Position numbers and translations under genes: made by a program. A DNA stretch of 64,000 bases from Saxidomus purpurata. Its lineage: Eukaryota; Mollusca; Bivalvia; Venerida; Veneridae. The notes under the pieces are model-generated. The model saw only the letters and a program-made list of their open reading frames with translations. It made no database searches and had not been told where the DNA came from. Each line of letters opens with the position of its first letter. Within the stretch, counting starts at the first letter, position 1. Below are positions 16,466 through 64,000 of this stretch, in pieces. The stretch spans positions 36,611,917 through 36,675,916 of the forward strand of contig JAFMSR010000015.1 of NCBI GenBank assembly GCA_022818135.1, read 5' to 3'.

Positions 16466-19400
16466 TGTTTAATCGTATCAAATTGTAAAAAGGTAAACAG
16501 AACTGATGTGACTAAGACACTTTGGGTTGTTCTTTGATATTATTTCTTATACTCGTGCAAAACCATATATGTGTAGTCTGATGCAAAGCTACAAACATAT
16601 TGTGCCGATATTACATAGTACAGAAATGCATTTGAATTTATATTAGGTTTACACTGGATGTCCAGTGCAAGTCCGAAAGGCGCTTGAGTTGATTTCGGAA
16701 TAGATTGTGCTTTGACAGAAATGTATTCCATTTGAATTTCAGTGTATGAGGTAAAGTTTTCACCAGATTTGAATAATGTGTAATAATATATTATGTAAAT
16801 CATAAAATGTTCTTTTGTATTCTAGAGAATACAAATATACAACAACATGCAGAAGTCTAAGGAAGGACAAAAACATTTGATCCTATCTAAGGTTTGTCAA
16901 TAAATGTTTAATGCAGAGTTTGACAACATATTCGAGCTCGCAAATTGCATTCTTAGATTTATTCCTGATTAGGTAATAGAGTGAGATAAGTGAGTATTTG
17001 AATGCATTAACGTTAATTTTTAATTCATCTTTAAAATTTAATGTCTAATGTACCGGTACAATTAAATATGCACTCAAGTTGATTTTAATGCTTTTCGAAA
17101 TCCCAAAGCACAGTCAAAAATGCATTTGTATTCCATAATTTATATTCGAAAATGTCTAAAGCAACAATAAAAGTACTTTCGATATCATATTGAATGCATT
17201 TTCAAATTCCAATGCAGAGAACGAAATGCAGCAAAGTAAATTTAATATACTTCCGAATACCTTATGTTGAGAAAGAAGTGTTTGTTAGAATTGACGACTT
17301 TACTTGTGACGCAGTGGTGAAAAAACTGTTGGATTCCCTTGGAGCGTATTTAGAAATGTCTAATGTATTTAGAAATGTCTTTTTGATTAGTATTAAAAGT
17401 CTTTCGCCTCTTTACCTACCTTCTCGTCTATTTACTTTTTTTGTGCAAGACACATATGAGCTTAGAAAAGCACACTGTATACGATATTCAATGACACAGT
17501 TGGAAGACGTGCATGCTGAATTTGCATGTTAGAATAACGCAAAAAATATTTAGTTCTTTTATCTTACCTTTCCAACACTCTGGAACATTATCCCAAGATC
17601 CATTTTCCAAACACTTCAACGTCGTAGAACCGTGAATACTAAACCCACTGTTACATTCAATAACCTGTGTATCGCCGACAGCAAACATGTTTCCAGCAGG
17701 TCTTCCATAAGTTACTTCCGGATAACCACATTCCAAATTCACTAGAACGAAAAAATAACAAGGTAAAGTAAGATACGAAAATGTGTCGCATTATTAAGAA
17801 ATAATAGGGATATGAGCACACTACATTTTTGTATTTCCTATTGTTGTATGTCTAACTGTTATCAGCGCTTTTCCTTTATTACGACTCGTAAGACTTTCTT
17901 GAAACTTGTTTTCTGGATTTATGTACAAAAGAAGGTTTTGTTGTTATTATTATCTTATTATTAGAATGGCTGTTGTATTTGAAGATGACAATTTGATTAT
18001 CTGGAAAGTAATGATCGCTTTCGAGCGAGATGAATTTGCTACAATGTTTTGATGAAAATCGCAACATCTACTATATAATTTCTCTGCACTTATATCGGAT
18101 AGACATTTCTTTTAAACCTGCTGATTGCTTCATTTTTGTCATTTCCCACAGTATTTATCAGCTGCATACAGACGTAAAATAAACATGAAACACAAATACG
18201 CATCTGACATTTATATGCAAGATTTTTACTGAATTCTGAATAGCTTAATACATCTAATAGGTTTCATGACTCTACTTCAGTATGTATTTGCAACGTTTGA
18301 CTTTACTTTAAACAATAATATCTGGGTAGAAGTTTGTGACAGAAATCAGTTTTTCCTTTGCTTAAAATAACAAGTTATGTTTTCTTTCGCATGGAACGTA
18401 TATTGTATCTTCAATCTTTTTTTCTGAACATCTAGAATATTAGTAAATATATTAACAATTGTTTACCTTTTGAGATGCATTTTCCATTTCCATCACATGT
18501 TTGTCCATCACATCCGTCATCACATTGGGACATCAATGATTTAAAAAAAGTTAACATGTAAATTAAATTAAACGTATTGTATTCTCTCAATCTTACAGGG
18601 CATTGAAAGAGACTATAATTGGCATCTGAATCAACAAATGAGAGCCTGTTGATATAGATAATAATATTTCAGATGAAAGAAAATTCAATTTATACGAATG
18701 CAAATTAGAGTTAAGTGCAGTATTATTGCGTTACATGTAGCATCGTGTTTTCAAAACTCCTCACTTCTCCATATCCCAACCTTACTCCCTTTTTTAACAT
18801 TAACACAATTCGAAAATGTTTACACTAACTATTTTTTTCTTTACTTGTTTTGATGTATAAGAAGAATCTTCGTTGTTTAATTTACTTTTTAAGTCGTGTT
18901 CATAAGTGCATAATGCTCTGACTTAATAGAGGTTATTGAGAACATTAGGTTGAACTTGCATGTGTTTCTTGTCAGTGTGATTTATTTGAAATCTTGTACT
19001 CTTATATCATTCACGAAATTAATAAATGAATATTATCCTGCAGTAATTCATCTTTGCAAATAAGTTTTCCCTACGGATGATTGTAGTGAAATTGATTAAA
19101 ACCTGTCTAACCTGAGTAACCAATATTTCGGGTAACTGACAAGATAGTAACTCCTGATTCAACACATGCCTTTACAATTTACTTGCACCGTGCTGGGGTA
19201 ATTGAGTCTGTTTTATGTTTGAATTTCTGTTATTATTTGTTACAGAATGTTTAAATTAAAGTTTCTGAAATTTGAACTGAACCCGTAACCATTTATTACA
19301 GTTCTGTAAATAGACATCGGTATTCCTAGTTGATTGCGGTTGCTTGGTTTGATAATGTTTATATTTGTCCTGAAATTATCACTCGCTTAAATAATTTGGT

Positions 19401-19593: not shown

Positions 19594-19806
19594 GACATTT
19601 ATGAACATATGGCCGACATAAGGGCGGGAAATAACTTCAAACCAGCAGCACGTCATTTCAATTCCGGGAACCACAGCGTCAACGACATTGATGTCACCAT
19701 CATCACGGCAACGACGAAAAACAGAAACATCAGACTGAGAACAGAAGAGACGTACATCAGCACCTTCAACACCAAAATGCCAAATGGTTTAAATTTGATA
19801 CAATAA
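19594..19806 (+). pseudogene. C-terminal end of a GIY-YIG endonuclease (Penelope-like element)
   Basis: Open from the truncation point to TAA at 19804. The frame reads DIYEHMADIR, then ARHFNSGNHSVNDIDV, RLRTEETYI and ending PNGLN. HFN..HS..D..V, then a Glu before Y/W-I, and a final P-x-GLN are hallmarks of the C-terminal endonuclease of canonical (EN+) Penelope-like elements. The catalytic N-terminal GIY..YIG half and the RT are lost. The ATG at 19609 is internal, not a start. In the right arm the TAA is lost by a 3-bp deletion, adding five residues. Confidence 0.75.
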
Positions 19807-19807
19807 C

Positions 19808-20425
19808 ATGGAGAAGTTAAATAAACGAAAACTAATAGACACGGACGAATTTAAAGCCATCAGCTCGAAACTTCGACAGTGCAAAACATGCAACCGATTC
19901 ATCAAAGGTTCCATAACAAACATGAAAAGACACATCGAAAGCAAACACTCGAAGAAAATTTCAATCCACATTTGCCCAGTTTGCGATAAGACCTATACAA
20001 GACCGGAATTTCTACAAAAACATGCCACAACAACACACGGACAAATAGTGAAAGAATACAAAACCACAATAATAGATGCCAACAGAACACCAAAAAACGA
20101 GATCAATCCAATTCAAGCATGGACACCTCCCTTCGAATCAACAAGAGCACCCAGATTCCGGATTATACCTGGAACAAAACCATGGCTAAAATCAACATCA
20201 TCCACATACCAAAAGAAACCAGTTAAGAAATTGAACATAAACAAAATTCTGAAGAAAATGATCATAACACCCTTACTCTCACCTATAGACAACACAACTT
20301 TACCGGACCACCACAATGTATCAGCAGTCTCGAGTACGGACACCATCATCCAAGATGAATTCGAGTACCAAAAGGAACTAAACATTAACATTTACAGCAT
20401 TTATGGAATCTTTGATAACACCTAA
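19808..20425 (+). CDS. Two-finger C2H2 zinc-finger ORF of the Penelope-like fragment (left)
   Basis: 205 codons, ATG one base after the endonuclease stop (TAAcATG). Residues about 24-46 form finger 1 (CKTCNRF to RHIESKH) and 55-77 finger 2 (CPVCDKTY to HATTTH); the rest is basic and Ser/Thr/Pro-rich (PGTKPWLKS, KKLNINKILKK) with an acidic C-terminus. Finger spacing fits C-x2-C...H-x(3-4)-H. Intact in both arms with only two residue differences. Because it lies inside the target-site-flanked insert it is most simply an accessory protein of the mobile element, perhaps nucleic-acid binding. No host homologue recognised. Confidence 0.65.
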   Translation: MEKLNKRKLIDTDEFKAISSKLRQCKTCNRFIKGSITNMKRHIESKHSKKISIHICPVCDKTYTRPEFLQKHATTTHGQIVKEYKTTIIDANRTPKNEINPIQAWTPPFESTRAPRFRIIPGTKPWLKSTSSTYQKKPVKKLNINKILKKMIITPLLSPIDNTTLPDHHNVSAVSSTDTIIQDEFEYQKELNINIYSIYGIFDNT

Positions 20426-26358: not shown

Positions 26359-26858
26359 NNNNNNNNNNNNNNNNNNNNNNNNNNNNNNNNNNNNNNNNNN
26401 NNNNNNNNNNNNNNNNNNNNNNNNNNNNNNNNNNNNNNNNNNNNNNNNNNNNNNNNNNNNNNNNNNNNNNNNNNNNNNNNNNNNNNNNNNNNNNNNNNNN
26501 NNNNNNNNNNNNNNNNNNNNNNNNNNNNNNNNNNNNNNNNNNNNNNNNNNNNNNNNNNNNNNNNNNNNNNNNNNNNNNNNNNNNNNNNNNNNNNNNNNNN
26601 NNNNNNNNNNNNNNNNNNNNNNNNNNNNNNNNNNNNNNNNNNNNNNNNNNNNNNNNNNNNNNNNNNNNNNNNNNNNNNNNNNNNNNNNNNNNNNNNNNNN
26701 NNNNNNNNNNNNNNNNNNNNNNNNNNNNNNNNNNNNNNNNNNNNNNNNNNNNNNNNNNNNNNNNNNNNNNNNNNNNNNNNNNNNNNNNNNNNNNNNNNNN
26801 NNNNNNNNNNNNNNNNNNNNNNNNNNNNNNNNNNNNNNNNNNNNNNNNNNNNNNNNNN
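26359..26858. other. Assembly gap, 500 N
   Basis: Exactly 500 N, a fixed scaffolding value. It lies close to the symmetry axis of the inverted duplication (about 25.9-27 kb). Any frame called across it is meaningless. Confidence 0.99.
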
Positions 26859-29172: not shown

Positions 29173-30093
29173 AGCTAACCTGGCACAAAGTGCCAAAGTG
29201 AGCAATAATGATCGCTTTCCGTCCGGGGTCCGTCGTACGTCTGTCCGTCCGTCCGTCCGTCCACCATTTCCTTCAAACGACATATCTTCTGAAACCACTG
29301 GGCCAATGTTGATGAAACTTTGAAGGGATGTTCCTTGCATGAAGCTCTATCAAAGTTGTTCAAAGAATTCCATTCCATGCAGAACTCTGGTTGCTATGGC
29401 AACAAATAGGAAAAACTGTAAAAATCTTTTCCTCTGAAACCACAAGGCCCAAAGCTTAGATACATGTATTTAGCATGTGGCATTGTCGCGTGGACCTCTA
29501 CCAAGATTGTTCAAATTATGACACCCGGGTCAAAATTGATCCCGCGCGGGGGTCACATAGTTTTGCATAGGCTTATATAGGAAAAACTTTAAAAATCTTC
29601 TTCTCTGAAACAACAAGGCCTAGAGCTAAGATATTTAACATGTTGCCTTGTCTAGTGGACCTCTGCCAAGATTGTTCAAATTATGAGCCCTGGGTCAAAA
29701 TTGACTGCCCGGGAGTCGCTTAGTTTTACATATGCTCATATAGGATTTTGTTTTAATCTTCTCTGAAACCACAAGGCCTAGAGCTGAGATATTTAGCATA
29801 TAGCATTGTCTAGTGGACCTTTACCAAGATTGTTCAAATCATAACTCCTGGTCAAAATTAACCCTTCCCAGGAGGGAGAGGGGGAAGGGGGGAATCACTT
29901 GATTTCACATAGGCTTATAAAGCGAAAACTTTAAAAAAAAAAAAAAAAAAAAGGCCGACAGGCAGATAATAGATATTTGAAATGTTACTTAGCACTATGT
30001 TGTGGACCTCTAAAAATTATGTTAGAATCATGACCCCTTTTATTATAGCAAATTGTAGTCAGGTGAGCGATATAGGGCCATCATGGCCCTCTT
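29173..30093 (+). mobile_element. Right-arm-only ~920-bp dispersed repeat
   Basis: Absent from the left arm, which joins GTTCTTATT directly to TTTGTTAAAG. Begins AGCTAACCTGGCAC, has (CGTC)n near 29240, then about four ~155-bp degenerate sub-repeats built on CTGAAACCACAAGGCC, GACCTCTACCAAGATTGTTC and GGGTCAAAATTGA, and ends in the short palindrome GGGCCATCATGGCCC. The motif set is common in bivalve genomes as I know them; the class is not established. No ORF. Confidence 0.7.
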
Positions 30094-30245: not shown

Positions 30246-31297
30246 GTAATTGTTTCATTATACCCCCAAAACGAAGTTTAGGGGGTATATAGGAGTCACC
30301 CGGTGGTTGGTCGGTCGGGCGGTCTGTTGCATTTTACTTGTCCGGAGCATAACTTGAAAACTACTGGTTGGAATTCAATACAACTTCATACAATGGTCAA
30401 GCACATTGAGAGGAAGTGCAGTGCACAAGAACTATAACTCCATCTTGACTAATTACAGAGTTATTGCCCTTTGTTACTTTTCCTTGTCCAGAGCATAACT
30501 TAAAAAATACTATTTGGAATTCAATACAACCTCATACAATGGTCAAGCACATTGAGATGAATTGCAGTGTACAAGAACCATAACTCCATCTTGACTTATT
30601 ACAGAGTTATTGCCCTTTTTACTTTTCCTTTTCCGGAGCATAACTTGAAAACTACCATTTGGAATTCAATACAATTTTATACAATGATCAAGCAGAATCA
30701 GGGGAAGTGCAGTGTACAAGAACCATAACTCTATCTTGAGTATTTACTGAGTTATTGCCCTTTGTTACTTTTCCTTGTCCGGAGCATAACTTGAAAACTA
30801 CTGGTTGGAATTCAATACAACATCATACAACGGTCAAGTACATCGAGAGGAAGTGCAGTGCACAGAAACCATAACTCTATCTTGACTAATAACAGAGTTA
30901 TTGCCCTTTGTTACTTTTCCTTGTCCAGAGCATAATTCGAAAACTACTAGTTGGAATTCAATACATCTTCATACAATGGTCAAGCACAATGAGAGGAAGT
31001 GCAGTGCACAAGAACAATAACTATATCTTGACTCGTTTCAGAGTTATTGCCCTTTGTTACTTTTACTTGTCCGGAGCATAATTCGAAAACTATTGGTTGG
31101 AATTCAATACGACTTCATACAATGATCAAGTACATTGAGAGAAAGTGCAGTGAACTCTATCTTTACAAATTACAGAGTTATTGCTAAGAACAATATCTCT
31201 TTTTAGTTTGTTTGCAAGGTATTATTTTACTACGAACTTCCTCAGTTTATAAAGCAGTATTTTGGGGGTATTAATCACATTTACTGATAGCTCTAGT
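30246..31297 (+). mobile_element. Right-arm-only TIR element with six ~147-bp tandem core units
   Basis: Absent from the left arm. The ends carry ATACCCCCAAAA in inverted orientation (about 30260 and 31260), and the 5' end folds back on itself (ACCCCCAAAACG / TTTAGGGGGTAT). Between them are six units starting near 30370, 30518, 30660, 30808, 30955 and 31098 (GGAATTCAATACAAC, GTGCAGTGCACAAGAAC, AGAGTTATTGCCCTTTG). Non-autonomous TIR elements with an internal satellite core are known in bivalves; assignment to a named family is not attempted. Confidence 0.75.
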
Positions 31298-31640
31298 TGT
31301 TCTTTGATTGAAGGACAAAACAACAATACTTTTTTTACGACAGAAACATCCAAGAGGTGATATCGAACATACGCAAAAGGTACGTCTTGATACCTATTGG
31401 CTAATGGTACGCCTGTGAACGTCTCAAAGATCGTACTATGTATGCATAATGTATAGAATCGATGCACACAGCATTGACATTTGAGCATGAAACGTCTTTT
31501 ATGTAGAAAATTATATTTTGAAAACAAAATAATTCAGGGACCTGATTTCCTGTTATGGATTAAAGAGTAAACTATGATTAATTGAATGGAATTGGTAAGC
31601 AAACATGTATGAATTGTGCAGAACTGTATGTAAATTGAAA

Positions 31641-34600
31641 ATGTTGTTTTTTGTGATCGTAGCCGTTGCTGTTTTCGGAAAAGTGTGTTGCGTACAATTT
31701 GAAATTAACGGTGTAAAAATTAGATATAAGGTGACTAAATACGACACTTGTACCATGTCACCTGTTAACAGAAGGCTCGTATCGCTACCAAGTGTATCAG
31801 TAAGTGAGTGCGTCTATCAGTGTGCAATAAATCCAAAATGTGTAGGTCTTAACTACAGAAGAAAATTCAGACTTTGCGACTTGGTATCTGAAAATGTTGA
31901 TCTGGAAACGATCCCTCATAGCTGGTTTATCAAGCGCAGTGATATTGTTGTTGGAAATGTAAGTAAAAATCGTCTGGTCAAATGCAAACTTTATATACGA
32001 TATCAAAAAGGTACATATTTTCGTTTTATTAGTCTTACATTTTGAACAAAGATACAGCTGATTTTGTTTCAAATTGTAACATCTTGTTTTGCTGGTTTTC
32101 TTATTCATAATCGTTTTCTATCAACACATCTGCTGTTATAAAAGAATGTACTTATATCAAACTCGTTGTTGTACAATGTTAATTCATTGTTCAAATTACC
32201 TTCAAATACATAAAAATATAACATATGAATTATGGAATAGCATTGTTTATTCTCGTTCGATTTAAATGTACTGACTGCCAGATGACATCCAGTATTGACA
32301 ACTATTAGATTGAGACATGGAGAGCGACCGACCATATGAAACGTACTTTTGTTCTGAAAAACTGTGTCTCGGATACCCTAAATGTACATTGAGAATGTAA
32401 ATTATAATGAAAATTTGTATTGCCATTTAAAATGGCTTAGCTTAAAACTTAACAAAATGCTACTAAAACATGTGAGAAATAATGTTCACCGGCGTAATGA
32501 AAATTCACGTAACAATATGAATAGAACACTAACAACTGTCTAGGATAGTCAAACAACATAGTTTTAGATGTTCACGTTTTTCGGTAAGAATGAAAATGAT
32601 ATAGGTAGTTAACGATTAAACAAACATGTTAAATCTAAAACATCTAACAAACAAAATGGTGTTTTTTTCTGATATTCGACACATTTTCATAAAAAGCCTA
32701 TACCAATTTAGGTTTTTCTTCTATTAAATAATATTAAAGGTAGATTTCGTCTGTGTTCTATACAGATTTTAACCAATATTTATTGAGTAAAAACGGTGGA
32801 GTAAAATCAAGCATTCCATTCATCATTTACTGTTATATAGGGAATACCTACATGTAATGCACGAGAAGTGCAAGTATTAAACAGTTATTATTGAAGATCA
32901 AGCCAGTAATGGTGACAAATCAAAACGTAAAAAAACATAAGAGGCCTATCTTTATTATACAAGAGGCTGTTTTTGTTATATATAAAGTATTCTTCCTTTA
33001 TAAAAATGATGGCAACTATGACCATCTAGCAATGGCCTCTAAACTGTATGATATTATAAATTGCAATATGAAACACATTTGCAATAAAACGTCATGCGCT
33101 ATTTACTAGCTGTTCTATTTACTGGATGAAACCTACCTAAATCTTTTTGCTTAGAATGTCAATATTTTCAGCAGAAATGATTTATTCTTTTCTATTATTT
33201 TTTCTTTCGGTGATGTTAGTTTTTGTATAGTTGGTAAGAAATATATACATTTTACTAAGTCATGCCAAATATTAAACTATCTTATGCAATATGTTAAATA
33301 TAAAAGGTAGGTATAGTGGAACGAACGACAAACAAAGGATTGTGTTAAAGTTTTACAGTGCACATCCGTTGTCTCGACTTCGGTTATCTCGATTTTTCGA
33401 TATCTCGACTGGATTTTCTCGGTCCCGATTTTTTCCCTTCTTATTCTATATAAATCAACTACGGATATCTCGATTTGTTTATCTCGATTTTTTCGTTATC
33501 TCGACTAAATTTTTGATCCCCAACTATGAAATTTTCTCTATTTTGACTTCCGATATCTCGGTTTGACATTTATCACCTGCCAAACGAGGTGCGACAAGCT
33601 GCATAGGATTGTATTTGCTCAATTGTCGTCTGCTGTCAGATGTGCGAAAAACACCACGCGCGGCTATTCACTCAGTGATTCGGTTAACGACCTGAAATTT
33701 ATTAATTATTTGTTTGCGACGTAAGCTGTGTAATACACGGAATGGGTAATTTGCATTGAATTCTGTCAAAATTTATGTGCATTTTTAAACAGCAAGAAAT
33801 GAAGATTCTGTCAATTATAAATCGTGTCATTAATACGTACACATTAGAAAGATAGCATCTCGATAAAAAAAAATCGGAAGAGTCATGTCGGAGGGCGGAA
33901 GTCATGAACTTGTCCGAGCGCCAGTCGAGCAATCCAGAGAAGGGCCCGGTAACCAACACGGGAGGATATCTGGATCGACAAACGCTGAGAGTTTTGGAGA
34001 AGGACCCAGTAACCAATCCGCGGGTATATCCAATCTTTCGGCACCGAGGTACAAGGGCAAGAAGAGAAAGTTACTACCCCCATCGAGCATATTTGATATT
34101 TTATTCAACTTCGGTTATCTCGATTTTTCGTTATCTCGGTTTATTTTCTTTGGTCCCAAAAAAATCGAGATAACGAGAGTCGACTGTATTTTAATTCCTA
34201 CGTTTCGACCAAAACTATGGTCTATATACTATGGGATACAAAATGACAGAAATGTTGTACTGAAGTATAAAACAAAAGGTTTTTTTGGTCACGTGATTAA
34301 AATCTAAAAATAGAACGAAATTAAAAGGAGTAATTTTATATGTCTTATTGATGTGTGTTGTTCATATGATTTAGGTGTTATCAAAGATTCCATAAATGCT
34401 GTAAATGTTAATGTTTAGTTCCTTTTGGTACTCGAATTCATCTTGGATGATGGTGTCCGTACTCGAGACTGCTGATACATTGTGCTGGTCCGGTAAAGTT
34501 GTGTTGTCTATAGGTGAGAGTAAGGGTGTTATGATCATTTTCTTCAGAATTTTGTTTATGTTCAATTTCTTAACTGGTTTCTTTTGGTATGTGGATGATG

Positions 34601-47081: not shown

Positions 47082-47503
47082 TAAATAAAACTTACGTTAG
47101 ATTAGTATGCGTATGTAAAAAAGGTGTCTCCGTGAAATAGACAGCTGATAAGAGAAACGGACATTTCTAAAAATTAACTTACATCCAGTTTCAGTTTACG
47201 GCTTGTAAAACTAATTACCATATTCATAATTATGTGCGCAACAATATGTTTGTTTATGTAAGAGGGGGCGGGACAATGGATTATACAGATTTTCCCTATC
47301 CATTTCAACATATATTTTGAAGAATAGTGACAATAATAATACATGTTTTCATAAGGTATTTTGACATAATGATTCAACATGAATACACAAAAACAAAAAT
47401 AATATCAAACAGGGAATGCCACGTACTAATTACTAATACTAAGGTAATTCTACAAAAAGGTTGAAAGTGTTTGTAATCAGAGTTTGAAAGTATTACTACA
47501 TTG
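47082..47503. other. Block unrelated to the left arm
   Basis: Between GGCGACCGCC and CTATTATACAAAC the arms carry different sequence (left 6706-7079). It includes a 38-bp retroelement tail at 47391-47428 (minus strand GTACGTGGCATTCCCTGTTT then GATATTATTTTTG). No gene recognised. Confidence 0.6.
47391..47428 (-). mobile_element. Very short Naiad-type tail fragment
   Basis: 38 bp matching the last bases of the retroelement tail at 57100-57143 (AACAAAAATAATATCAAAC then AGGGAATGCCACGTA on the + strand). Confidence 0.7.
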
Positions 47504-52649: not shown

Positions 52650-53858
52650 ATTACGATGTTTGTACGGAATATAACAACGTTTGTTTAGACAAAAGACGTT
52701 GGTATAACATATGCAGACGTTAGTATAAAATAAAAAGACGTTGATTTAGAATATAAAGGCGTGTTTAGAATAGCATATAAAGACGTTTGTATGAAATATA
52801 AAGGCGTTGGTATAGAAACAAAAGACGTTGGTTTATAATATAAAGACGTTGGTATGAAATATAAAGAAGTTGGTATCGAATAAAAAGGCGTTGGTATGAA
52901 ATATAAAGACGTTGGTATAAAATAAAAAGGCGTTGGTGTAGAATATAAGGACGTTTGTATAGAATATAAAGACGCTGGTATGAAATATATAGACGTTGGT
53001 ATAGAATAAAAAGGCGTTGTTATAGCATATAAAGACGTTGGTATAGAATATAAAGTCGTTGGTATAGAATATAAAGACGTTTGTATGAAATATAAAGGCG
53101 TTGGTATAGAAAGAAAGACAGTGGTTTATAATATAAAGACGTTGGTATAGAATATAAAGACGTTTGTATGGAATATAACGACGTTGGTATAGGATATAAT
53201 GACGCTGGCAAAGAATATATTGACGTTGGTGTAGAATAAAAAGAAGTTGGTATGGAACAAAAAGACTTTTGTTAAAATATAAAGGCCTTGGTTAGAAATA
53301 TATAGGCTTTGGTATAGAATACTAGGTAGTTGGAATAGAATAAAAAGACGTTGGTATATAATAAAAGACGTTGGTTTAGAATGTAAGGGCGTTGGTAAAG
53401 AACAGAAAGGCGTTGGTATAGAATATAAAGGCGTGTATAGAATATAAAGACGTTGGTTTAGAACATAAAGGCGTTAGCATGAAATATCAAGGTATTGGTA
53501 CAGAATATAAAGGCATTGATATAGAATATAAATGCGTTGGTATATAATATAAAGACGTTGGTATACAATATAAAGGCTTGTATAAAATATAAAGACGTTT
53601 GTATAGAATATAAATACGTTGGTATAGAATATAAATGCGTTGGTATAGAATATAAAGACGTTGGTCAAGAATATAAAGGCGTGTATAGAAACTAAAGACG
53701 TTTGTATGGAATATAATGACGTTGGTGTAGGATATAAAGGCGTTGGTAAAGAATATAAAGACGTTGGTATGAACTATAAAGGCGTTGGTATTTAATATAA
53801 AGTCGTTGATAAAGAATATTAAAGACGTTGTAATAGAATACAAAGGCGTTTGTATAGA
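52650..53858 (-). repeat. 21-bp satellite, main block (right), cut by gap
   Basis: Mirror of 1-1850, read as AATATAAAGACGTTGGTAT. Unit counts and order differ slightly from the left array. The contig ends inside the array, at the 500-N gap. Confidence 0.93.
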
Positions 53859-54358
53859 NNNNNNNNNNNNNNNNNNNNNNNNNNNNNNNNNNNNNNNNNN
53901 NNNNNNNNNNNNNNNNNNNNNNNNNNNNNNNNNNNNNNNNNNNNNNNNNNNNNNNNNNNNNNNNNNNNNNNNNNNNNNNNNNNNNNNNNNNNNNNNNNNN
54001 NNNNNNNNNNNNNNNNNNNNNNNNNNNNNNNNNNNNNNNNNNNNNNNNNNNNNNNNNNNNNNNNNNNNNNNNNNNNNNNNNNNNNNNNNNNNNNNNNNNN
54101 NNNNNNNNNNNNNNNNNNNNNNNNNNNNNNNNNNNNNNNNNNNNNNNNNNNNNNNNNNNNNNNNNNNNNNNNNNNNNNNNNNNNNNNNNNNNNNNNNNNN
54201 NNNNNNNNNNNNNNNNNNNNNNNNNNNNNNNNNNNNNNNNNNNNNNNNNNNNNNNNNNNNNNNNNNNNNNNNNNNNNNNNNNNNNNNNNNNNNNNNNNNN
54301 NNNNNNNNNNNNNNNNNNNNNNNNNNNNNNNNNNNNNNNNNNNNNNNNNNNNNNNNNN
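53859..54358. other. Assembly gap, 500 N
   Basis: Exactly 500 N. Frames called across it (for example an apparent join of satellite to RT) are artefacts. Confidence 0.99.
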
Positions 54359-56317
54359 ATAAAACACCTGTTAGAAATGTTATATTCAATTACAATAAAA
54401 TTGTTTCCGACCTAGATGTTCAAACAAATACCCCTTCTTACTGCGAATGTAAAAACTCGAAATTTTGCTATTCAGATGCCGGTCATGTCATCACTGGTAA
54501 TTTTGATATTATTAAAGACAAGCGTATTCGTAATTTATTCTTTAAAGGACCAAAATACAGAATTCCTTCTACTATTGATTTTCATGCTTGTCGTGGTCAT
54601 ATTGCGGAATCCATCGAAACTTTTTGTGTTAAATGGTGTCGTCGTGAGAATGCTGATCCAAATGCATTAACGTCTTGGAAACGAAGTATTTTTAACATTG
54701 TCGATTTTCGTATAAAATTTTACCAAACAAATGAACACCTACTTCCATCAAAACCCAAGTTTACTTTAAGACATCTGAAAAAGGAAATCCAAGAATTTCA
54801 TTCTAAGTATGTCTTAGTTCCAGCAGACAAGGCGGCCAACAATATTATCATCATTTGACGCCTACATTATATTAATGTTTTACAAAACGAACTAAATAGC
54901 ACTAAAGCTTATATATTGAGTCCTTCCGTTGAACAAAATGTGGTCACTGATCACATCAGTGAAGTTTCTAATTTGAAAGTTCGTATAGATGATCAACATA
55001 TTAAACTTCCTACTATGTACTGGATTCCTAAATTACATAAACAACCATATAAAGCTCGTTTCATCGCTAATTCAAGCTCTTGTACCACTACAAATATTTC
55101 AAAACTATTAACATCTTGCCTAACTGCTATAAAAGCCCACGTGAAAAGATACAGTATTGTGATAAAATATACGAAAACTCTGGTAAACATTTATTTTGGT
55201 CGATCAAAAATTCTGGCGAAATTCTGGATAAGTTTAAAGTTAATAATTACAAAGTAACTTCAGTCAGGACATACGATTTTTCTACTTTGTATACCACTTT
55301 ACCACATAATTTGATAAATGACAAGCTAACTGCCCTAATTCAAAAGACTTTTGCCAGGGAGAATGCTACATTTCTCGCCTGCAATTTCGATAAAGCCTTT
55401 TTTACTAGCTGTATTGTTAAACATTATACTATGTGGACCTGTGACGAAGTTTGTAAAGCCCTTTCCTTTTTATTGAACAACATTTATATAAGGTTTGGGA
55501 ATGCAGTTTTCAGACAAGTAATTGGTATTCCCATGGGAACAAATTGTGCACCCCTTGTCGCAGATTTGTTTTTATATTGTTATGAAAGAGACTTTATGTT
55601 GAGTCTTTCTCCAGATACGCAGGCAGACATTATCACTGCTTTTAATAATACATCACGCTATCTGGATGATATTCTTAATATGGATAACCCGTTTTTTGGT
55701 CAATTGGTGGACACTATTTATCCCCGGGAACTCCAGTTAATTAAAACTAACAATTTGGATACTGGTGCTTCAATAGATTTACATCTCTCTATTTATAACA
55801 ACATTATACATACCAAAATTTATGATAAGAGGGATGATTTTAATTTTAGTATTGTAAATTTCCCCCATTTGGATGGGGATGTACCTCATGCTACATCTTA
55901 TGGGGTATACATTTCTCAGTTAATTCGGTTTGCCAGAGCGTGTAGTCATGTTGAGGATTTCAATGAACGTAATCAATATATATTACAAATAAACTTCTTC
56001 AACAGGGCTACCGTTATTACAAATTGCGTAAATATTTTGCTAAATTTTACTATCGTAATTCTGATTTGGTTTTGAAATTCAATAGTAATCTAAAGACTCT
56101 TCTGCGAGAAGGTATTTCAAAACCCGATTTTTATGGGGATGTGGTTTACAAACTTCGTAAGATTTTGGGTCATGGCAATTTTCCAACTGTATTTGCTAAA
56201 ATTATAAAACGTTTTGTTAAAAGAGGTTACGACCCAACTGTTTTGAGACACACCGCATGTTTGGTGTTCAACCCGTTTACAGTTGGACGCTATGCTTCCC
56301 TCTTTGATTGTGTCTGA
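54359..56317 (+). pseudogene. Naiad reverse transcriptase ORF, candidate selenoprotein, frameshifted
   Basis: In order: CxC motif (YCECKNSKFC, about 54443-54472) and GHVITGNFD; the DKA motif (VPADKAANN); in-frame TGA at 54856; YWIPKLHK; RT motif A TYDFSTLYTT (Asp at 55275); motif B IPMGTNCAPLVADL; motif C RYLDDI (55656-55673); LDGDVP..YGVYISQLIRFAR; C-terminus YDPTVLRHTACLVFNPFTVG, stop TGA 56315. The CxC domain before the RT and no GIY-YIG after it fit Naiads (permuted Penelope-like elements). Two frameshifts: near 55150 (RYSIVIK instead of YCDKIYEN) and a TA insertion near 55985 relative to copy 2. So this copy is dead, but young: its last 97 codons equal copy 2. Confidence 0.85.
54856..54858 (+). 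other. In-frame TGA, candidate selenocysteine codon
   Basis: Follows ADKAANNIIII and precedes RLHYINVLQNELNSTKAY, with the same frame open for about 165 codons before and 98 after. From my memory of related elements a Cys stands at this place. Cys-to-TGA at a conserved site plus a SECIS downstream argues for selenocysteine, not a nonsense mutation. Naiads of clams are known to encode selenoproteins. Confidence 0.7.
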
Positions 56318-56328
56318 CGGAAGAGGGG

Positions 56329-56392
56329 GAGGACTCTGTGATGGGCAGTTTTTAAATCCCACTGGGACGAAACTGTTTTGATTTCTGTCCTC
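56329..56392 (+). promoter_or_regulatory. SECIS element (type 2-like), Naiad copy 1
   Basis: Begins 12 nt after the ORF stop. Helix I: GAGGAC (56329-56334) with GTCCTC (56387-56392). Internal loop, then the quartet GTGA (56338-56341) opposite TGAT (56379-56382). Helix II: GGGCAGTTT with AAACTGTTT (three G-U pairs and CAGTTT/AAACTG). Twelve nt after TGA comes the conserved AAA (56354-56356) in a bulge, then a mini-stem TCCC/GGGA with loop ACT. Sheared G-A quartet, AA bulge at 11-12 nt and apical mini-stem are the defining parts of a eukaryotic SECIS. Confidence 0.8.
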
Positions 56393-57143
56393 TGGCCTAT
56401 TTCGTCGGGCCCTTAAAGGTGTTTCTCTGGGTGCTCTGCCTTCTGCAAAGGCATTGAGTACATACGTTTTTTGGTTCTCTAGGTTTGCCTTTTATATATT
56501 TATACACGAGCATGATTTTGTGCTTTACATACCATGCCTTTTGTTTCCATTGCGTGTGTTAGAGATTCACCTAGCAGGGATTACTTTTATTTACACTGTC
56601 CTGTGACTTTGGTTTAAGCTCCCCAGTGGTGTTTTTGCCACTGACCGTTCCAAGGCGGTGCCCCACTGTGTTCCTTTAATTGTCGTTTTGTCCTCGTGTG
56701 TTTGTTTGTGTGCTGGGGTGTGTTGGTGGTGTATTTGTGTGGTGTGTGTTGGTGGTGTGCACTTCTGGGTGCTGTGGGGTTCGTTTGGGGGAGGCTGGGC
56801 CCGTTTTTGGTTCGTGGCTTCCCTGTTTGATATTATTTTGTTTTTTTGGAACATGGTGGGGGTAAGAGTGAAATTGGGTGCGCACCATAAACCGGTTTAC
56901 GCTCCCCAGTGGTGTTTTTGCCACTGACCGTTCCAAGGCGGTGCCCCACTGTGTTCCTTTAATTGTTCGTTTTGTCCTCGTGTGTTTGCTTTGTATGCTA
57001 GTGTGTGCTTGTAGTGTATGTATGTGTGTGTGTGTGTGTGGGTTGGTGGTGTGCACTTCTGGGTGCTGTGGGGCTCGTTTTGGAGATGCTGTGTTTTTGG
57101 TACGTGGCATTCCCTGTTTGATATTATTTTTGTTTTTTTCTAC

Positions 57144-57590
57144 TATATTTTGTTTAAACTTATTAAACATATTTTCAGAGAGAAAACTGGTTATTTGTTA
57201 AAAATATAGACGTAATGTTTGCTAGTCACCTATATTCATTAAAAAGTTAACCTTGTTCTGTCTTCATCGTGTTTTACATTAGACAATCAATTTAGTAGAT
57301 GTAATAGTAGATAATCATATAAGTTGGGAGTCCAGAGCCCCCGTCCTTCTGTAGAACCTTGTATTCATGACCACTGGTTAAGCCGTCTACAGAAGAGACG
57401 ACATGAGCAGAAAACTTGTAGCATTGTATGGTTATCAAAGTCGTACTACAGAGGTCAGGAGCACATGAGCCGATGTTGAGCCAGAGACAACACTTCAAGT
57501 GAAGTTACCAATTCAGCAATATTGACCAGGCCAGCAAACGCAACCCTTAGTACTACGAGTGCTAAACCTAGTGGGACCCTTAATAGCCGG
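57144..57590. other. No gene recognised
   Basis: AT-rich sequence after the retroelement tail, becoming more GC-rich near 57310-57590. No exon or repeat family recognised; a 68-codon minus-strand frame has no domain. Confidence 0.4.
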
Positions 57591-57659
57591 CACGCAACAA
57601 CATAGTGTAGCGGTCCGTAAAACCGGCATTTTCATTTGATTCCTGTCGAGTATATCTGC

Positions 57660-58234
57660 AGATTTTCAATAATACGCTTCCAAAAAGTAAATAGTAGCGA
57701 ACGCTTTTGAAATTCTTAAAGGGACACACCGTATAACTGATGTCGAACTAAATAACCTCAAAATATAAATAAGACACTTTGGAAAAATTATAACTTAACT
57801 TAAAAGTTCAAGCTATATATTCCCAGTCATTGTAGATAACATCAACGGTTTAAAGAATATTGCAGTACTGTAAACCATTCAATACGATAAAAGGTTGGAG
57901 GCGATTTATTAGAGGTTCTACATTGATTGAGGTAAAATGAAGCATTTTTCGGCATATGTTCTTCTTTCAAAGTGTATTTATTTATCATTCATTTTACGTT
58001 CATTGAACACATAATCTAAGTGTCGAGAATAAAATCTGCTGGATGTAGGGAGCGCCTCTTTAATTATACATATTGTGTAGCGGTGCCGTAAAACCAGTAT
58101 TCATTCGATGCTCACATTCCTACAAAGATTTAAACTTCTGTTGTCAATTCTAGCCTTTAATTTTATATTTATATATTAGTATGTCATTTGGAAAATTTCT
58201 TTTTTTCAATGGCAACTGAGAGCGAGCAGCTTTC
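57660..58234 (-). mobile_element. MITE family 1 copy split by MITE family 2
   Basis: Two halves of one minus-oriented MITE 1: about 57660-57715 (ATACGCTTCC, GCGAACGCTTTTGAAATTCT) and 58064-58234 (GTGTAGCGGTGCCGTAAAAC to GAGAGCGAGCAGCTTT). The gap between them is exactly the MITE 2 at 57716-58063. A further internal fragment of MITE 1 lies at 57596-57655. Confidence 0.75.
57716..58063 (+). mobile_element. MITE family 2 copy nested in MITE family 1
   Basis: TTAA at 57716-57719 and 58060-58063. Ends AGGGACACACCGTATAACTG and, on the other strand, AGAGGCGCTCCCTACATCC. Clearly homologous to 12260-12638. Confidence 0.8.
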
Positions 58235-58492
58235 ATGCCCTATCTTTTTAATTGGTTATTGAAGACTCTGCAACAGGTGAGGAATTTGAAATTAGATGAT
58301 CAAAATGAAATACATGAAGATTCCATTCGTTTTGAGCAATTACTGTATCATTGGGAATTGCTTGAAGATATTCTGAACGAAGACACCCTAACTTCAGCGC
58401 ATAGGCAGCAAAAGAAAAATTCTTCTGTGTCTGGACAGAAATGGTCGCCCGAGGAGGAAAAAGATAAAAGAAATCCTCTAGAAACGTTTTAA
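58235..58492 (+). CDS. Unidentified 85-codon ORF beside MITEs
   Basis: Starts directly after a MITE terminus. Residues 17-60 are charged and acidic (NLKLDDQNEIHEDSIRFEQL, LLEDILNEDTL), then Lys/Glu-rich (SPEEEKDKRN). The composition looks more protein-like than other frames here, but there is no known domain. CAACAG|GTGAGG near 58275 could be a splice donor, so it could also be a remnant exon of a gene or transposon. Low confidence. Confidence 0.25.
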   Translation: MPYLFNWLLKTLQQVRNLKLDDQNEIHEDSIRFEQLLYHWELLEDILNEDTLTSAHRQQKKNSSVSGQKWSPEEEKDKRNPLETF

Positions 58493-58623
58493 CTTGCAAG
58501 TAAGGCCCACTCCAAAGCAATAATGGAAGACTTGTGAATCTTCAAAAAAGAAAAATGGCCCAATACACAAGCGAGAGAAGAATGTACATCTACTTGAGAA
58601 AATCTTACGAATGATAGAGTCTA

Positions 58624-58945
58624 AAAGCTGCTCGCTCACATTTTTGATGAAAAATTTAAGTTCTTTAAACTGTATGAAAATAATGTATTTTAGAACATAA
58701 AGTCATATGAACAGGATTCCTGTACAGTTTAACTGTACTGCAGACTTGACAGTTTAACTGTACTGCAGACTTGACAGGATTCCTGTACAGTTTAACTGTA
58801 CTGCAGACTTGAAATAACACGCTTCCAAATACTCTGAAATTCCAATATAAACTTATCGTGTAACGGTGCTGTAAACCAGTATTTACAATCGATACCTAGA
58901 TTGTTGCTTCTTTTCTCGATTTTAGTTTGAAGAACTCTCATTTGT
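58624..58945 (+). mobile_element. MITE family 1 copy with internal short tandem repeat
   Basis: Left terminus AGCTGCTCGCTCACATTT with degraded TTAA (CTAAA). Internally, GTTTAACTGTACTGCAGACT recurs three times (58725-58810). The right terminus is replaced by the retroelement tail that follows. Confidence 0.65.
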
Positions 58946-58951
58946 TTACCA

Positions 58952-59141
58952 AAAAAAACAAAAATAATATCAAACAGGGAATGCCACGTACCAAAACGCG
59001 CCTCCCAAACGAACCCCACAGCACCGAAGTGCACAACCAACAACACACACACCACCCGTTACACACACACAATATGTACATACACATTACATAATGCAAA
59101 CACCGAGGAAAAACGACATTTAAAGGAACACAGTGAACATA
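58952..59141 (-). mobile_element. Naiad-type tail fragment
   Basis: About 190 bp matching the retroelement 3' region from CACTGTGTTCCTTTAA to the terminal TATTATTTTTGTTTTTTTT, read on the minus strand, with a CA-rich stretch in the middle. Confidence 0.8.
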
Positions 59142-59206
59142 CCGTATCACTGATGTTAAACAAAATAACCGCAATCACATTATAAATAGAATAATCGGCT
59201 ATGTTA

Positions 59207-59655
59207 CAAGTTATAGTTGCTCTTTCTCAGTTGCCGTTAAAATAAATCACAAATGACATACAAATTAGAAATTTGCAAAAATCGATTGAAAATGCTGATT
59301 TCACGTTACCGCTACACTATAGATGTAAATGTTAGAATTCTCAAAAAACAAAAATAATATCAAACAGGGAAAGCCACGTACCAAAAACGCAGCCTCCCCA
59401 AAACGAGCCCCACAGCACCCAGAAGTGCACACCACCAACACATACACACAATCATGTACACACACACACGTACACTACCAACACACACTAAGCCTTTGCA
59501 ATGCATTTGGTAGCGTATTATTTCAAATCTTTAGAACGTCGCAGGAATTTCTACTGAAATTTTTGTAGCCTAATATAAATATAATTTTACAATACGCCAT
59601 TTTTATACAATTTGAAGAACTTTATTTCTTTACCAAATTCCGAGCGCAAAAAGCT
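59207..59655 (+). mobile_element. MITE family 1 copy interrupted by a Naiad tail
   Basis: Left half 59207-59340 (GTTGCTCTTTCTCAGTTGCC to ACCGCTACACTATAGATG) and right half about 59500-59655 (TTGGTAGCGTATT to AAATTCCGAGCGCAAAAAGCT). Between them is the retroelement tail at 59343-59497. Confidence 0.6.
59343..59497 (-). mobile_element. Naiad-type tail nested in MITE family 1
   Basis: Minus strand: TGGTGGTGTGCACTTCTGGG, CTGTGGGGCTCGTTTTGG, TACGTGGCTTTCCCTGTTTG and TATTATTTTTGTTTTTTG, preceded by a TG-rich tract. Tail only, no coding sequence. Confidence 0.8.
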
Positions 59656-59960
59656 TCAACCTATGTTTGACTATGCATTGCAGCCATTATCGATAAAATC
59701 GGCGTTTTATAATATGTTGCAGTACCGTTAACAATTTCGAAATTTATCACGTTGTTGTTCGATGAAAGAACACCTACATCTAGCAGATTATATTCTCGAA
59801 ACATAGATTTTGTGTTTAATGAACGTAAAATGCTCAATATATACAATTTCAAAGAAGAACCTATGAAGAAGACTCTATGGCGAAAATAGCATCAATTTAC
59901 CACAGATAATCAATATACATGTAGGGCTTCTAGTAATAATGTTTTAGTGACATGCAAGTG
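59656..59960 (+). repeat. Diverged MITE family 2 relic
   Basis: Shares CATTATCGATAAAATC, GCAGTACCGT and AACGTAAAATG blocks with 12260-12638; the blocks are rearranged and the termini are lost. Confidence 0.45.
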
Positions 59961-60007
59961 ATACTTTAATAAAACATCGTTTTAAAAATATGATTATTAT
60001 ATAAATA

Positions 60008-60304
60008 ATGTATGTCTTTTCCACCTTTATCGGTTGGAAGTCAAATAATTCATTATGTATTAGTAACCCAGTGAGATGTACTCAATATTTCCAAATGTGC
60101 CTCACTTATTTAGAGTTATTCACCATGTGGGGTATTGCTGTCTTATTTTGGTCCATCCCATCCAATATCATTGCTCTGGTTGCCTTTTGGATTGCATTAT
60201 GTGGTTGTAATATTTATGTCTCATGTAGATTTGTATCACTCGACCAGTTTGAAATTCATGTAAAGGAAATATTCACCCAGTGTCTTCATGAATGCAGGGC
60301 ATGA
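60008..60304 (+). other. Unidentified 98-codon ORF, hydrophobic
   Basis: Residues about 38-72 are strongly hydrophobic (LFTMWGIAVLFW, IIALVAFWIALCG). No family recognised, no second copy in the window, and the flanks are repeat debris. Could be a relic exon of a membrane protein or chance. Confidence 0.2.
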
Positions 60305-60327
60305 TAGCTTTCGTGCACAGATAGCAA

Positions 60328-60448
60328 AAAAAAACCCCCCCCCCCACCCAAAACCCCCCCCCCCCCCACACAACCCCCCAAAAAAAAAAAAAAAAAAAAA
60401 CAACACCCCCCAACAAAAAAAAAAAAAAAAAAAAAAAATAAATAAGCT
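60328..60448. repeat. A/C homopolymer low-complexity tract
   Basis: Alternating long A and C runs. Base-call accuracy here is doubtful; frames through it are meaningless. Confidence 0.9.
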
Positions 60449-60537
60449 AAAAATAAGCTGGTAGATACTGGAAGGGTTGATAATTAAACACAATTGTGCG
60501 TTAAAAGTGTTGTTTAGTATGTATATACTAACAGTAT

Positions 60538-60893
60538 TTAAAGCTGCTCGCTCTCAGTTACCGTTGAAAAATATATTTTTTGAAAAAATTGAAATTCTTA
60601 ATCATAAACATAAAACTGAAGGCCAGAAAGAAAAAATCTAGGTAGGAATTTGCAGAAATCGATTGATAAGGTCGGTTACACGGCACCGCTACACTATATG
60701 TATATATTGAAATTTCAAAAGCGTTTGTAACGCTTTTGAATTTGGTAGCGTATTTTTCGAAATTAAGAGATGTACGTGACATGAATTTATACTGGAGCCT
60801 TTTTATATCACCATATGTTCCTAAATACGTTATCTACATTCAGTTTCAATAACTTTATTTTTTTCACCAAAAACGGAGAGCGAGCAGCTTTAA
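60538..60893 (+). mobile_element. MITE family 1, best-preserved full copy
   Basis: 356 bp including TTAA at both ends. Termini: AGCTGCTCGCTCTCAGTTAC and, on the other strand, AGCTGCTCGCTCTCCGTTTT. A central inverted repeat CAAAAGCGTTTGTAACGCTTTTG adds internal symmetry. No ORF. Confidence 0.85.
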
Positions 60894-61779
60894 ACACACC
60901 AAGGGACTTTTAAAATCATGTAGTTATGTTGAAGAATAATATACAGAGATCGTATTTTATCCATGAAGCTGACCAATTTATAGAAAGTACATGATACAGA
61001 ATCTTAGCTGGTAATATGCTGAATATTCAAAATGTGTTTAATTCAAGTAAAAAATTCTGTCATTTTTTTTTTACAAAAAATCCGGCTCTCTCTGAAGAGC
61101 ATGTGCCTTCCTGTACAACGGAGGTGAAAAAAATTTTTTTTTTTCCCATTTCAACCATTTTTGGAGCGAGCGGAGAGCGATTTGGTAAAATAAATTAAAA
61201 AACTCCTAACAAAAACAAATATTCACTGTCAAAACAGATAGAAAAGAGTTGGAAAAAGATAAAAGAGCTACAGACACCTTAAATATAAACTGCCAAAAAA
61301 GGTACAGACCACAAAGTGACTCCTATATACACCAGTACAAAGTTTGCATGGGGTGTAATAAAGTGTTTCCTGCAAGAAAACATTTTTTATGCATTTAAAA
61401 AGACCATATTTTGTTTTTTTACATAAATGTACAGCCACTACAACAAGTTTTTTGAAAGAGAAACAATTTCTTTTCATTTAATAAACCATCAGACTCGTGT
61501 GTATTCAATTTATGCGCAAACACTTTGTAATGACACCCATTTGTTAGTCATAACAAAATAACCCACAGAACAACTTCTTTAGTTAAGTCAAGGCATATGC
61601 TCTTTTACTGCACTTCTTCTACTGACCATAAGTGTTTTGACTAGAGATAATTTTTCAATTTCACAATGCTACAAACTTGTTAGTTTCTTGATTTTTTACT
61701 GAATTTCCTTCCAAAGGTTTTAGCCTCAACGCCATTATCATGACACTTTTTACACAGAGGGCGCACTTTTGAAAATTTG
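60894..61779. other. No gene recognised
   Basis: AT-rich with T runs near 61070 and 61140. Short ORFs have no domain. Confidence 0.4.
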
Positions 61780-61781
61780 GT

Positions 61782-62126
61782 AATCAATATATTACAAATA
61801 AACTTCTTCAACAGGGCTACCGTTATTACAAATTGCGTAAATATTTTGCTAAATTTTACTATCGTAATTCTGATTTGGTTTTGAAATTCAATAGTAATCT
61901 AAAGACTCTTCTGCGAGAAGGTATTTCAAAACCCGATTTTTATGGGGATGTGGTTTACAAACTTCGTAAGATTTTGGGTCATGGCAATTTTCCAACTGTA
62001 TTTGCTAAAATTATAAAACGTTTTGTTAAAAGAGGTTACGACCCAACTGTTTTGAGACACACCGCATGTTTGGTGTTCAACCCGTTTACAGTTGGACGCT
62101 ATGCTTCCCTCTTTGATTGTGTCTGA
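61782..62126 (+). pseudogene. Naiad ORF C-terminus (copy 2)
   Basis: Last part of the ORF after the RT catalytic core: KFYYRNSDLVLKFNSNLKTL, KPDFYGDVVYKLRKILG, then RGYDPTVLRHTACLVFNPF. No RT motif remains, so the copy cannot move by itself. Its value is as a reference for the correct reading frame of copy 1. Confidence 0.8.
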
Positions 62127-62136
62127 CGGTAGAGGG

Positions 62137-62199
62137 GAGGACTCTGTGATGGGCAGTTTTTAAACCCACTGGGACGAAACTGTTTTGATTTCTGTCCTC
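62137..62199 (+). promoter_or_regulatory. SECIS element, Naiad copy 2
   Basis: Same fold as in copy 1: GAGGAC/GTCCTC helix, GTGA opposite TGAT, CAGTTT/AAACTG helix, AAA bulge, mini-stem. The mini-stem is CCC/GGG here instead of TCCC/GGGA: a 1-nt change that leaves the stem and the AAA intact. Confidence 0.78.
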
Positions 62200-62610
62200 T
62201 GGCCTGTTTCGTCGGCGCCCTTAAGGGTGTTTCTCTTGGTGCTCTGCCTTCTGCAAAGGCATTGAGTACATACGTTTTTTTGGTTCTCAAGGTTTGCTTT
62301 TTATATATTTATACACGAGCTTTTGTGTTGTTTTACATACCATGCCTTTTTATTTCCATTGCGTGTGTTAGAGATTCACCTAGCAGGGATTACTTTTTAT
62401 TTACCCTGTCCTGTGACTTTGGAACATGGTGGGGGTAAGAGTGAGGTTGGGTGCGCACCATAAACCGGTTTAAGCTCCCCAGTGGTGTTTTTGCCACTGA
62501 CCGTTCCAAGGCGGTGCCCCACTGTGTTCCTTTAATTGTTCGTTTTGTCCTCGTGTGTTTGCTTTGTATGCTAGTGTGTGTTGGTAGTGTATATGTGTGT
62601 GTGTGTACAT

Positions 62611-62647
<37 letters not shown>

Positions 62648-62836
62648 TTGTGTGCGACTTCTGGGTGCTGTGGGGTTCGTTTTGGGGAGGCTGCGTTTTT
62701 GGTACGTGGCATTCCCTGTTTGATATTATTTTTGTTTTTTTGGTGGTGTGCACTTCTGGGTGCTGTGGGGTTCGTTTTGGGGAGGCTGCGTTTTTGGTAC
62801 GTGGCATTCCCTGTTTGATATTATTTTTGTTTTTAT

Positions 62837-64000
62837 GACCTTTGACTCTCTGTGAGCGCGATTTTCATTTAAGTCGGTGCGATTAACATTCGACACAAGT
62901 TTCATGAAAATCCTTGTAGAAGATACTGAGTGGACACGAAAAACTAATTTGCCCTCGGTGACCTGAAATGCATTTAATCCTTCGTCCGTATATTAGCTAC
63001 CTATGTATTTTTTTTTGGGTATAACGATGCAAACAGATTCAATGCACGTACCTAGATTATATGGCATGATTCTGGGCTTTCGAAAACCTTTTATAACGTT
63101 GCTGTTGTGATTTGGTCAACTGCATGGCTTAGGGACCGGGGAATCTGGCTTTACCAATCACAAAACCTTGACTTAACCGTGGAAACTCTCCTGAAATCAC
63201 AATTTCATAATTATGCAAATAACTTAAAATTACGAGAGATGAAAGAGGATTGGTGAATGTAATCTTAAATCATGACATCCATTCATGTAGTGTGCTCTTT
63301 GATAACAAACTTATGATCTGATAATGTGGTCCTCGCAAGACTCAAAATGCGTGTGTGTACTTATAGTACAAATAGTCAAATATACAATTTAGTTATTCAC
63401 TTCGGAATATCAAATTATTATCACTTCTTGATATAACTTGTCTTGCACATCACGAGTAGTGTGAAAACATGCCGTCCTACCGCTTTGTGGGAGTCATGAT
63501 CCTCCATTAGAAGGAGAACTGGTCTCGTTCTTTCACAGCTGTGAATAAATGAGCGTGTAAACCATATAGCCTGTATGAGAATAACGATGAGAAAAATATG
63601 TAATAAATTCATTTGAAACACATACCTATTGCAATTTACACTTCAAAATTAAATCCAATACAGTATACATGTAATTCATTTGATGTTAATAGTTTTTTTC
63701 TTTTGATTGGTTAACTTAACACTGTTTAATTTTTTTTAAAAGTTTAATGGAATGTAGTATGTACAAATTTGTTGCACATGTCATTTAAATCCATAATGCT
63801 AGAAATGTTGTACCAAAACTTTGTATTTGCTAGTAAATAGGGAGGGAATACATTTTGATAAAACTAAAAGTTAAGATAATGTTTGATAATAAATTTGATT
63901 ACTGTAATTTAATGGTTTTAAGATCGGCATTCATTTGTGATGGAAGTCCTTGAGACTTTTAACTATATTATACGAATCCATGTCGTCGCCTTATCAAGTG
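62837..64000. other. No gene recognised
   Basis: Begins directly after the retroelement tail. No exon, MITE terminus or satellite recognised; minus-strand frame 63421-63621 has no domain. Confidence 0.4.

Follow-up and report, generated by a model that had tools for sequence, protein, structure and literature searches.

The window, by which we mean the whole stretch of 64,000 nucleotides of Saxidomus purpurata DNA that was analyzed, carries a copy of a Penelope-like retroelement and, behind it, a second copy truncated at its 5′ side. The features of both copies, together with an isolated fragment of the same element, are as follows.

54361..54855, plus strand: RT-proximal part of the ORF, 5′ of the proposed Sec codon; open frame, with homology both to intact copies and to proteins in databases
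54442..54450, plus strand: CxC motif (CEC), from the translation; aligns with CDC/CSC, or with WDC in some relatives
54856..54858, plus strand: in-frame TGA, proposed selenocysteine codon; equals residue 578 of the intact ORF at locus L019
54859..55140, plus strand: ORF in unchanged frame 3′ of the TGA; frame break near 55150 after it
55158..55962, plus strand: RT core in a different frame, with motifs YDFSTLY, GIPMGTN and SRYLDD; second frame break near 55975
55988..56314, plus strand: C-terminal part of the RT ORF, from the translation, last residues FDCV
56315..56317, plus strand: terminal TGA, proposed true stop; the SECIS core GTGA follows 20 nt on
56330..56391, plus strand: SECIS element, Rfam RF00031, 38.7 bits
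56392..57137, plus strand: 3′ UTR/tail of the element, with an internal repeat (56611-56848 resembles 56894-57137)
61780..62742, plus strand: second, 5′-truncated copy, comprising the last ~110 codons and the 3′ UTR
62124..62126, plus strand: terminal TGA of copy 2, from translation and copy comparison
62138..62198, plus strand: SECIS of copy 2, 36.3 bits
10959..11055, plus strand: isolated 97-nt fragment of the element's 3′ UTR, from self-comparison of the window

Copies 1 and 2 are identical over 300 nt (55978-56277 in copy 1), and a 95-nt 3′ repeat lies behind copy 2, reaching 62834. More short fragments of the 3′ UTR were seen on the minus strand at 58954-59071, 59344-59488 and 47386-47429.

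The preliminary description of this DNA had placed a TGA at 54856 within an open RT frame. The ORF translation agrees: the frame is open from 54361 for 165 codons, reaches the TGA shortly after the motif PADKAANN and continues for 132 more codons. The context of this TGA is TGACGC. That description had also treated the RT ORF as one reading frame, which holds for some genomic copies and fails for the window copy. Frame shifts near 55150 and 55975 mean that the latter is broken, and its 5′ part is missing because a 500-N gap (53859-54358) adjoins it on that side. With two frame breaks and its 5′ part unseen, the window copy is unable to make the full protein.

The SECIS hairpin claimed 12 nt past the terminal stop was recovered with a covariance model. 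The search covered 53500-64000 of the window, and the Rfam SECIS_1 match (E 5e-5) begins at exactly this distance. Both copies score above the gathering score of 35. Folding energy by itself sets the hairpins apart only moderately, with z-scores against shuffles of -1.73 for copy 1 and -1.67 for copy 2; 13 and 14 of 200 shuffles, respectively, folded equally well. The case for a SECIS rests on the covariance-model match.

The 1.135-Gb assembly was searched for further copies, and 20 copy-bearing loci were retrieved; L021 and L022 appear to be one insertion represented twice, and L009 and L011 overlap. At L009, L019 and L023 a single frame starts with a GIY-YIG-like domain at the N-terminus, continues across CxC and RT and finishes at the terminal TGA. 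It contains three inner TGAs only, at residues 140, 151 and 578, numbered on the 1062-codon L019 reading from a possible start codon. The first two fall within the N-terminal endonuclease and the third in the RT. The single Sec codon proposed earlier therefore stands as to the RT site and is corrected as to number, intact copies having three candidates. The RT-site TGA was present in 21/21 copies examined, the window copy included, both endonuclease-site TGAs in all eight copies long enough to reach them, and the terminal TGA in 22/22. A protein search of the genome gave 4,691 first-look candidates. All 48 long copies that were scored have at least three TGAs, counted per copy without regard to position; 39 have exactly three and no TAA or TAG, and nine have additional stops.

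In the L019 ORF, 0 TAA, 0 TAG and 3 TGA codons were observed, where a Markov-1 model of the same DNA predicts about 35, 12 and 18, respectively. None of 2000 simulations was free of both TAA and TAG. The open frame of the intact copy does not arise by chance. These counts also bear on the view that a dead family, copied in trans by another element, acquired the TGAs as ordinary nonsense mutations and carries a SECIS-like hairpin only incidentally. The broken window copy and the many 5′-truncated genomic copies are in keeping with such a family, and the youth of the copies would allow for the spread of a defective master. Nevertheless, about 48 TAA/TAG would be expected in 1062 codons that hold three TGAs and neither of the other stops, a SECIS over the cut-off occurs in both window copies, and the genome holds at least 2,390 perfect SECIS cores. 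The residues found in related proteins at the TGA sites also stand against it.

The relatives listed number 192, made up of the best 120 of 2,258 for the RT part and 72 for the N-terminal part. Cys had been expected at the RT site of related elements, and it is the commonest residue there: 37 of the 192 listed relatives span residue 578, with Cys in 23, Trp in 13 and Asp in one (P0192, 21% identical). A count on the best 120 RT relatives gave Cys 19, Trp 9 and Ser 1 (P0080). Another 49 listed relatives (43-99% identical) end at residue 576/577, corresponding to a stop at the RT site, a number that is not a frequency because the query was cut there and the length filter favors proteins of that size. 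Each of these 49 is a whole protein ending at the site. P0121, which is 99% identical and ends there, probably belongs to the same family as the element.

The endonuclease sites showed a similar picture. Residue 140 is Cys in six and Trp in five of 11 relatives, and residue 151 is Cys in five, Trp in five and a gap in two of 12. P0160 has Trp at 578, 140 and 151 and also at the first C of CxC, while P0153, P0170, P0175 and P0184 have Trp at both 140 and 151. P0074 and P0086, nearly identical to the Trp-bearing P0003, start just past the RT site. Judged from the proteins, Trp in these relatives is probably a TGA read under another code. P0186, 30% identical over 916 positions, has Cys at 140, 151 and 578 and in CxC. 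A Ruditapes philippinarum protein, P0185, gave a 59% match over 25% of the N-terminal query.

Some RT relatives carry bacterial labels (Thiodubiliella, Thioglobus, Campylobacter and Thiodiazotropha; L029, L030, L031, P0085 and P0099). The prokaryote genome collection gave three contigs with relatives, one of which spans the RT site and has Cys; Cys was seen in a contig from the assembly of a Bathymodiolus symbiont. The occurrence of these relatives in bacterial assemblies is probably host contamination. No DNA of the relatives was found in IMG/VR.

For a dead family, then, the three TGA positions would have to coincide with sites that are Cys or Trp in nearly all spanning relatives, and relatives down to 43% identity would have to stop at the same RT position. 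A Cys-type family that might act as helper was sought in the same genome. None was found among the 54 matches listed for P0016 (from 3,579 first-look candidates) or among the 49 listed for P0186 (from 2,576), and every match listed for the two queries carries an in-frame TGA; other families may rank below those listed. We regard nonsense mutation in a dead family as extremely improbable.

A tree of 74 rows (50 stop rows, query included, 12 Trp and 12 Cys) was rooted at its midpoint, and its bootstrap is unsettled. P0016, a Cys row, is nested among stop rows in a group with good support. Seven further Cys rows share another well-supported group with Trp rows, and long branches lead to the four Cys rows that are most distant. 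The nested Cys forms fit Sec-to-Cys changes and would suggest that Sec and Cys have been exchanged in both directions in this lineage.

UGA is the leakiest stop codon, and a C after it favors read-through. The UGAs might accordingly be passed at a low rate by a near-cognate tRNA without Sec, so that a product with the endonuclease alone would arise beside small amounts of the full-length protein, and the RT site does have C after the UGA. Leakiness leaves the SECIS and the Cys identity of the positions unexplained, however, and hardly any RT would be made if three UGAs had to be read through in succession. This explanation is very improbable. Reassignment of the genetic code was rejected because TGA also terminates the ORF in 22/22 copies.

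Of the accounts considered, we find only Sec insertion at the three UGAs by the host pathway able to explain at once why there is a SECIS, why the positions are Cys and why TAA and TAG are missing. With a probability of about 0.94, the locus is a damaged Penelope-like retroelement of the Naiad type, with an N-terminal GIY-YIG domain, whose single ORF would encode a selenoprotein with several Sec residues. The features expected of a selenoprotein gene are present: an in-frame UGA with coding sequence beyond it, a SECIS in the 3′ UTR, Cys in homologues and tRNA-Sec matches in the host genome.

The assignment to Naiads had been based on CEC before the RT and the lack of a C-terminal GIY-YIG domain. 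Both observations hold. CEC lies between endonuclease and RT and is aligned in relatives, and no C-terminal endonuclease follows the RT, the ORF ending at 56314. The permuted order, with a GIY-YIG-like domain at the N-terminus, then CxC and RT, was seen directly in intact copies. Their N-terminal domain reads IYVLT-U..CGIQYVGQTGRSLKIRFREH and is not visible in the window copy because of the gap. The aligned N-terminus of P0186 matched Pfam GIY-YIG with 30.2 bits (cut-off 22.6), whereas the element's own N-terminus gave no GIY-YIG match in Pfam. None of the element's own pieces gave a Pfam match over the cut-off, RVT_1 reaching 14 bits against a cut-off of 29.6, and one RT piece, searched by sequence against the PDB, had no match at E up to 1.

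The CCHH residues are a motif of the PLE endonuclease. Two of the four positions are residues 140 and 151, Cys or Trp in relatives (with two gaps at 151) and UGA here, and the His residues are conserved in REH and SGH. We take 140 and 151 to be the metal-ligand Cys residues of the endonuclease. The motif would be complete only if UGA encodes Sec and Sec can stand in for Cys.

An AlphaFold model of the L019 protein, with TGA read as Cys, had a mean pLDDT of 81.5, residues 1-101 being of low confidence. The 16 best Foldseek matches in the PDB were all telomerase (best E 2.4e-10), with low whole-chain TM-scores of 0.22-0.29 by query. Telomerase likeness is expected for Penelope-like RTs, and the modeled fold argues for a relationship of the element's RT to telomerase. 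At locus L009 a tandem or pseudo-LTR arrangement was found, with a 2416-nt direct repeat, 99.7% alike, in copies 4159 nt apart. A search for hammerhead ribozymes in 53500-64000, where the copy is without its 5′ part, gave no match at E up to 1.

Craig, Yushenova, Rodriguez and Arkhipova (2021, Mol Biol Evol 38:5005) reportedly described Naiads, and clam and spider Naiads are said to have become selenoproteins independently, with several Sec residues. Naiads, these selenoprotein forms included, share with the element an N-terminal GIY-YIG-like domain, CxC and a C-terminal telomerase-like RT, and the selenoprotein forms also share tandem copies, several in-frame UGAs and a SECIS. No categorical difference was found; the present element has three candidate Sec codons and keeps Cys in CxC. 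In some of its relatives the first C of CxC is also replaced by Trp, which is probably UGA. The element would be a further member of a kind that has reportedly been described already. A literature search that did not cover the paper by Craig and colleagues listed no paper on selenoprotein Naiads among its matches. Beyond the preliminary description, the present analysis adds the count of SECIS cores per genome, the pattern at the RT site in 86 of the 192 listed relatives and the nested Cys forms.

Canonical Penelope/Poseidon elements also combine a GIY-YIG endonuclease with RT and occur in tandem. In the anole PAc element, for example, the endonuclease is C-terminal according to PMC11167929, whereas in the present element it is N-terminal. 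Host selenoproteins with several Sec residues, such as selenoprotein P, likewise have several UGAs recoded via a SECIS in the 3′ UTR; the human protein has 10 Sec according to PMC3737529. Selenoprotein P is an ordinary host gene, however, while the element encodes a mobile enzyme and is present in hundreds of copies or more.

The mechanism that we infer comprises Sec insertion, a rule for the terminal stop, enzyme activity and selenium dependence. The SECIS directly 3′ of the ORF would recruit the host SECIS-binding protein, eEFSec and Sec-tRNA. Three UGAs would be recoded as Sec: a pair in the endonuclease, at positions where Cys is conserved, and one just after PADKAANN in the RT. Recoding would fail at the last UGA, which has the SECIS core only 20 nt away, and translation would end there. 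The full protein is predicted to nick DNA and reverse-transcribe its own RNA. If recoding failed, only truncated fragments without a complete RT would be made, so that mobility would be expected to require selenium. Reliance on the host selenium machinery for both endonuclease and polymerase would tie the mobility of a selfish element to a trace nutrient, and the abundance of young copies with intact frames makes this testable.

The terminal UGA could alternatively be a fourth Sec codon, the ORF then ending at a UGA inside the SECIS core. In its favor, the terminal TGA is kept in 22/22 copies, and a second in-frame TGA lies 24 nt on in 20/20 fetched copies. Among the 192 listed relatives, however, Cys was found at the terminal-TGA position in none of 65 motif matches, of which two end at that position and two are plainly not this tail. 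The distance of 20 nt to the core is also shorter than the 51-nt minimum between UGA and SECIS stated in PMC3737529 and falls below the range of 51-111 nt given in PMC3316567. From this distance and the lack of Cys in relatives, the terminal UGA most likely terminates. A fourth Sec codon there is improbable and was rejected, there being no Cys in relatives and the SECIS core being too near.

The preliminary description had predicted that the TGA column would hold TGA or Cys codons across copies rather than random ones. A 30-mer at the RT site occurs in the genome as 537 exact copies with TGA versus one with TGC, TGG or TGT (a TGG). A synonymous control base of the same 30-mer showed three changes versus one at the third base of the TGA. 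The copies are young, mostly 98-99% alike, and for this reason the invariance of the TGA is weak evidence of constraint and the 30-mer count alone is insufficient. Selection on the ORF was estimated on the fetched copies minus the window copies and L022. Counting by copies and counting by distinct changes gave a whole-ORF dN/dS of 0.40 (0.21-0.76) and 0.54 (0.34-0.82), respectively. For the part 3′ of the RT TGA it was 0.61 (0.26-1.88) and 0.80 (0.43-1.72), respectively, which is indistinguishable from 1.

The hairpin had likewise been expected in other copies, and it proved widespread. Both conditions named in advance as refuting, codons unrelated to Cys at the site and a hairpin missing from most copies, turned out in favor of the preliminary description. 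A genome search with RF00031 listed at least 41 matches (150 scored of 31,687 candidates), with matches in 0/14 control genomes. Of the matches fetched from across the list, 20/20 were this element, at 94-99% over 131-643 nt. The 2,390 cores given above are exact occurrences of a 39-nt SECIS core, for which the reversed-pattern control gave 0. SECIS cores are some four times as numerous as the RT-site 30-mer (2,390 vs 537), a rough ratio, the two patterns differing in length.

We suggest, as a tentative and rather unlikely possibility, that through the element the SECIS has become a dispersed genomic repeat that could compete with the host, gate retrotransposition by selenium and seed SECIS elements in host genes. 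If so, the SECIS load could compete with host selenoproteins for the SECIS-binding protein and Sec-tRNA, and a ready-made SECIS dropped behind a host gene would turn a UGA there into Sec. Thousands of mobile SECIS elements would then offer a route for the origin of new selenoproteins.

One tRNA-Sec gene is usual in an animal genome. Five tRNA-Sec matches over the Rfam cut-off were found here (C4:37496671, C6:30227920, C2:50977409, C1700:12250 and C6:29916750), the best at 78.8 bits. Two of them score equally, one being on a small contig, and may be a single gene. In the control, 14/14 prokaryote genomes gave some match and 5/14 gave one over the cut-off. Five matches would fit a raised demand, provided that they are genes; the extra ones may be additional genes, but also pseudogenes or duplicates made by the assembly.

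Most of the window is occupied by an inverted duplication (20-24009 and 27943-53858) around a 500-N gap at 26359-26858. Its longer matches outside satellite are about 87-98% alike, and instead of a true palindrome it may be a pair of haplotypes that scaffolding has put together. A 21-nt satellite (unit GAATATAAAGACGTTGGTATA) forms mirrored arrays at 24-1829 and 52667-53858, the second ending exactly at the N gap beside the retroelement. One arm of the duplication also holds tandem arrays at 29406-29863 and 30332-31152, with units of 158 nt and 146 nt. Fragments of host-type genes were seen at 12718-13110 (minus strand), 17491-17790 (minus), 19799-20422 (plus) and 31599-32042 (plus). Their domains are F5/8 type C, Sushi, zf-BED/C2H2 and PAN, and similar ORFs occur in the mirrored arm.
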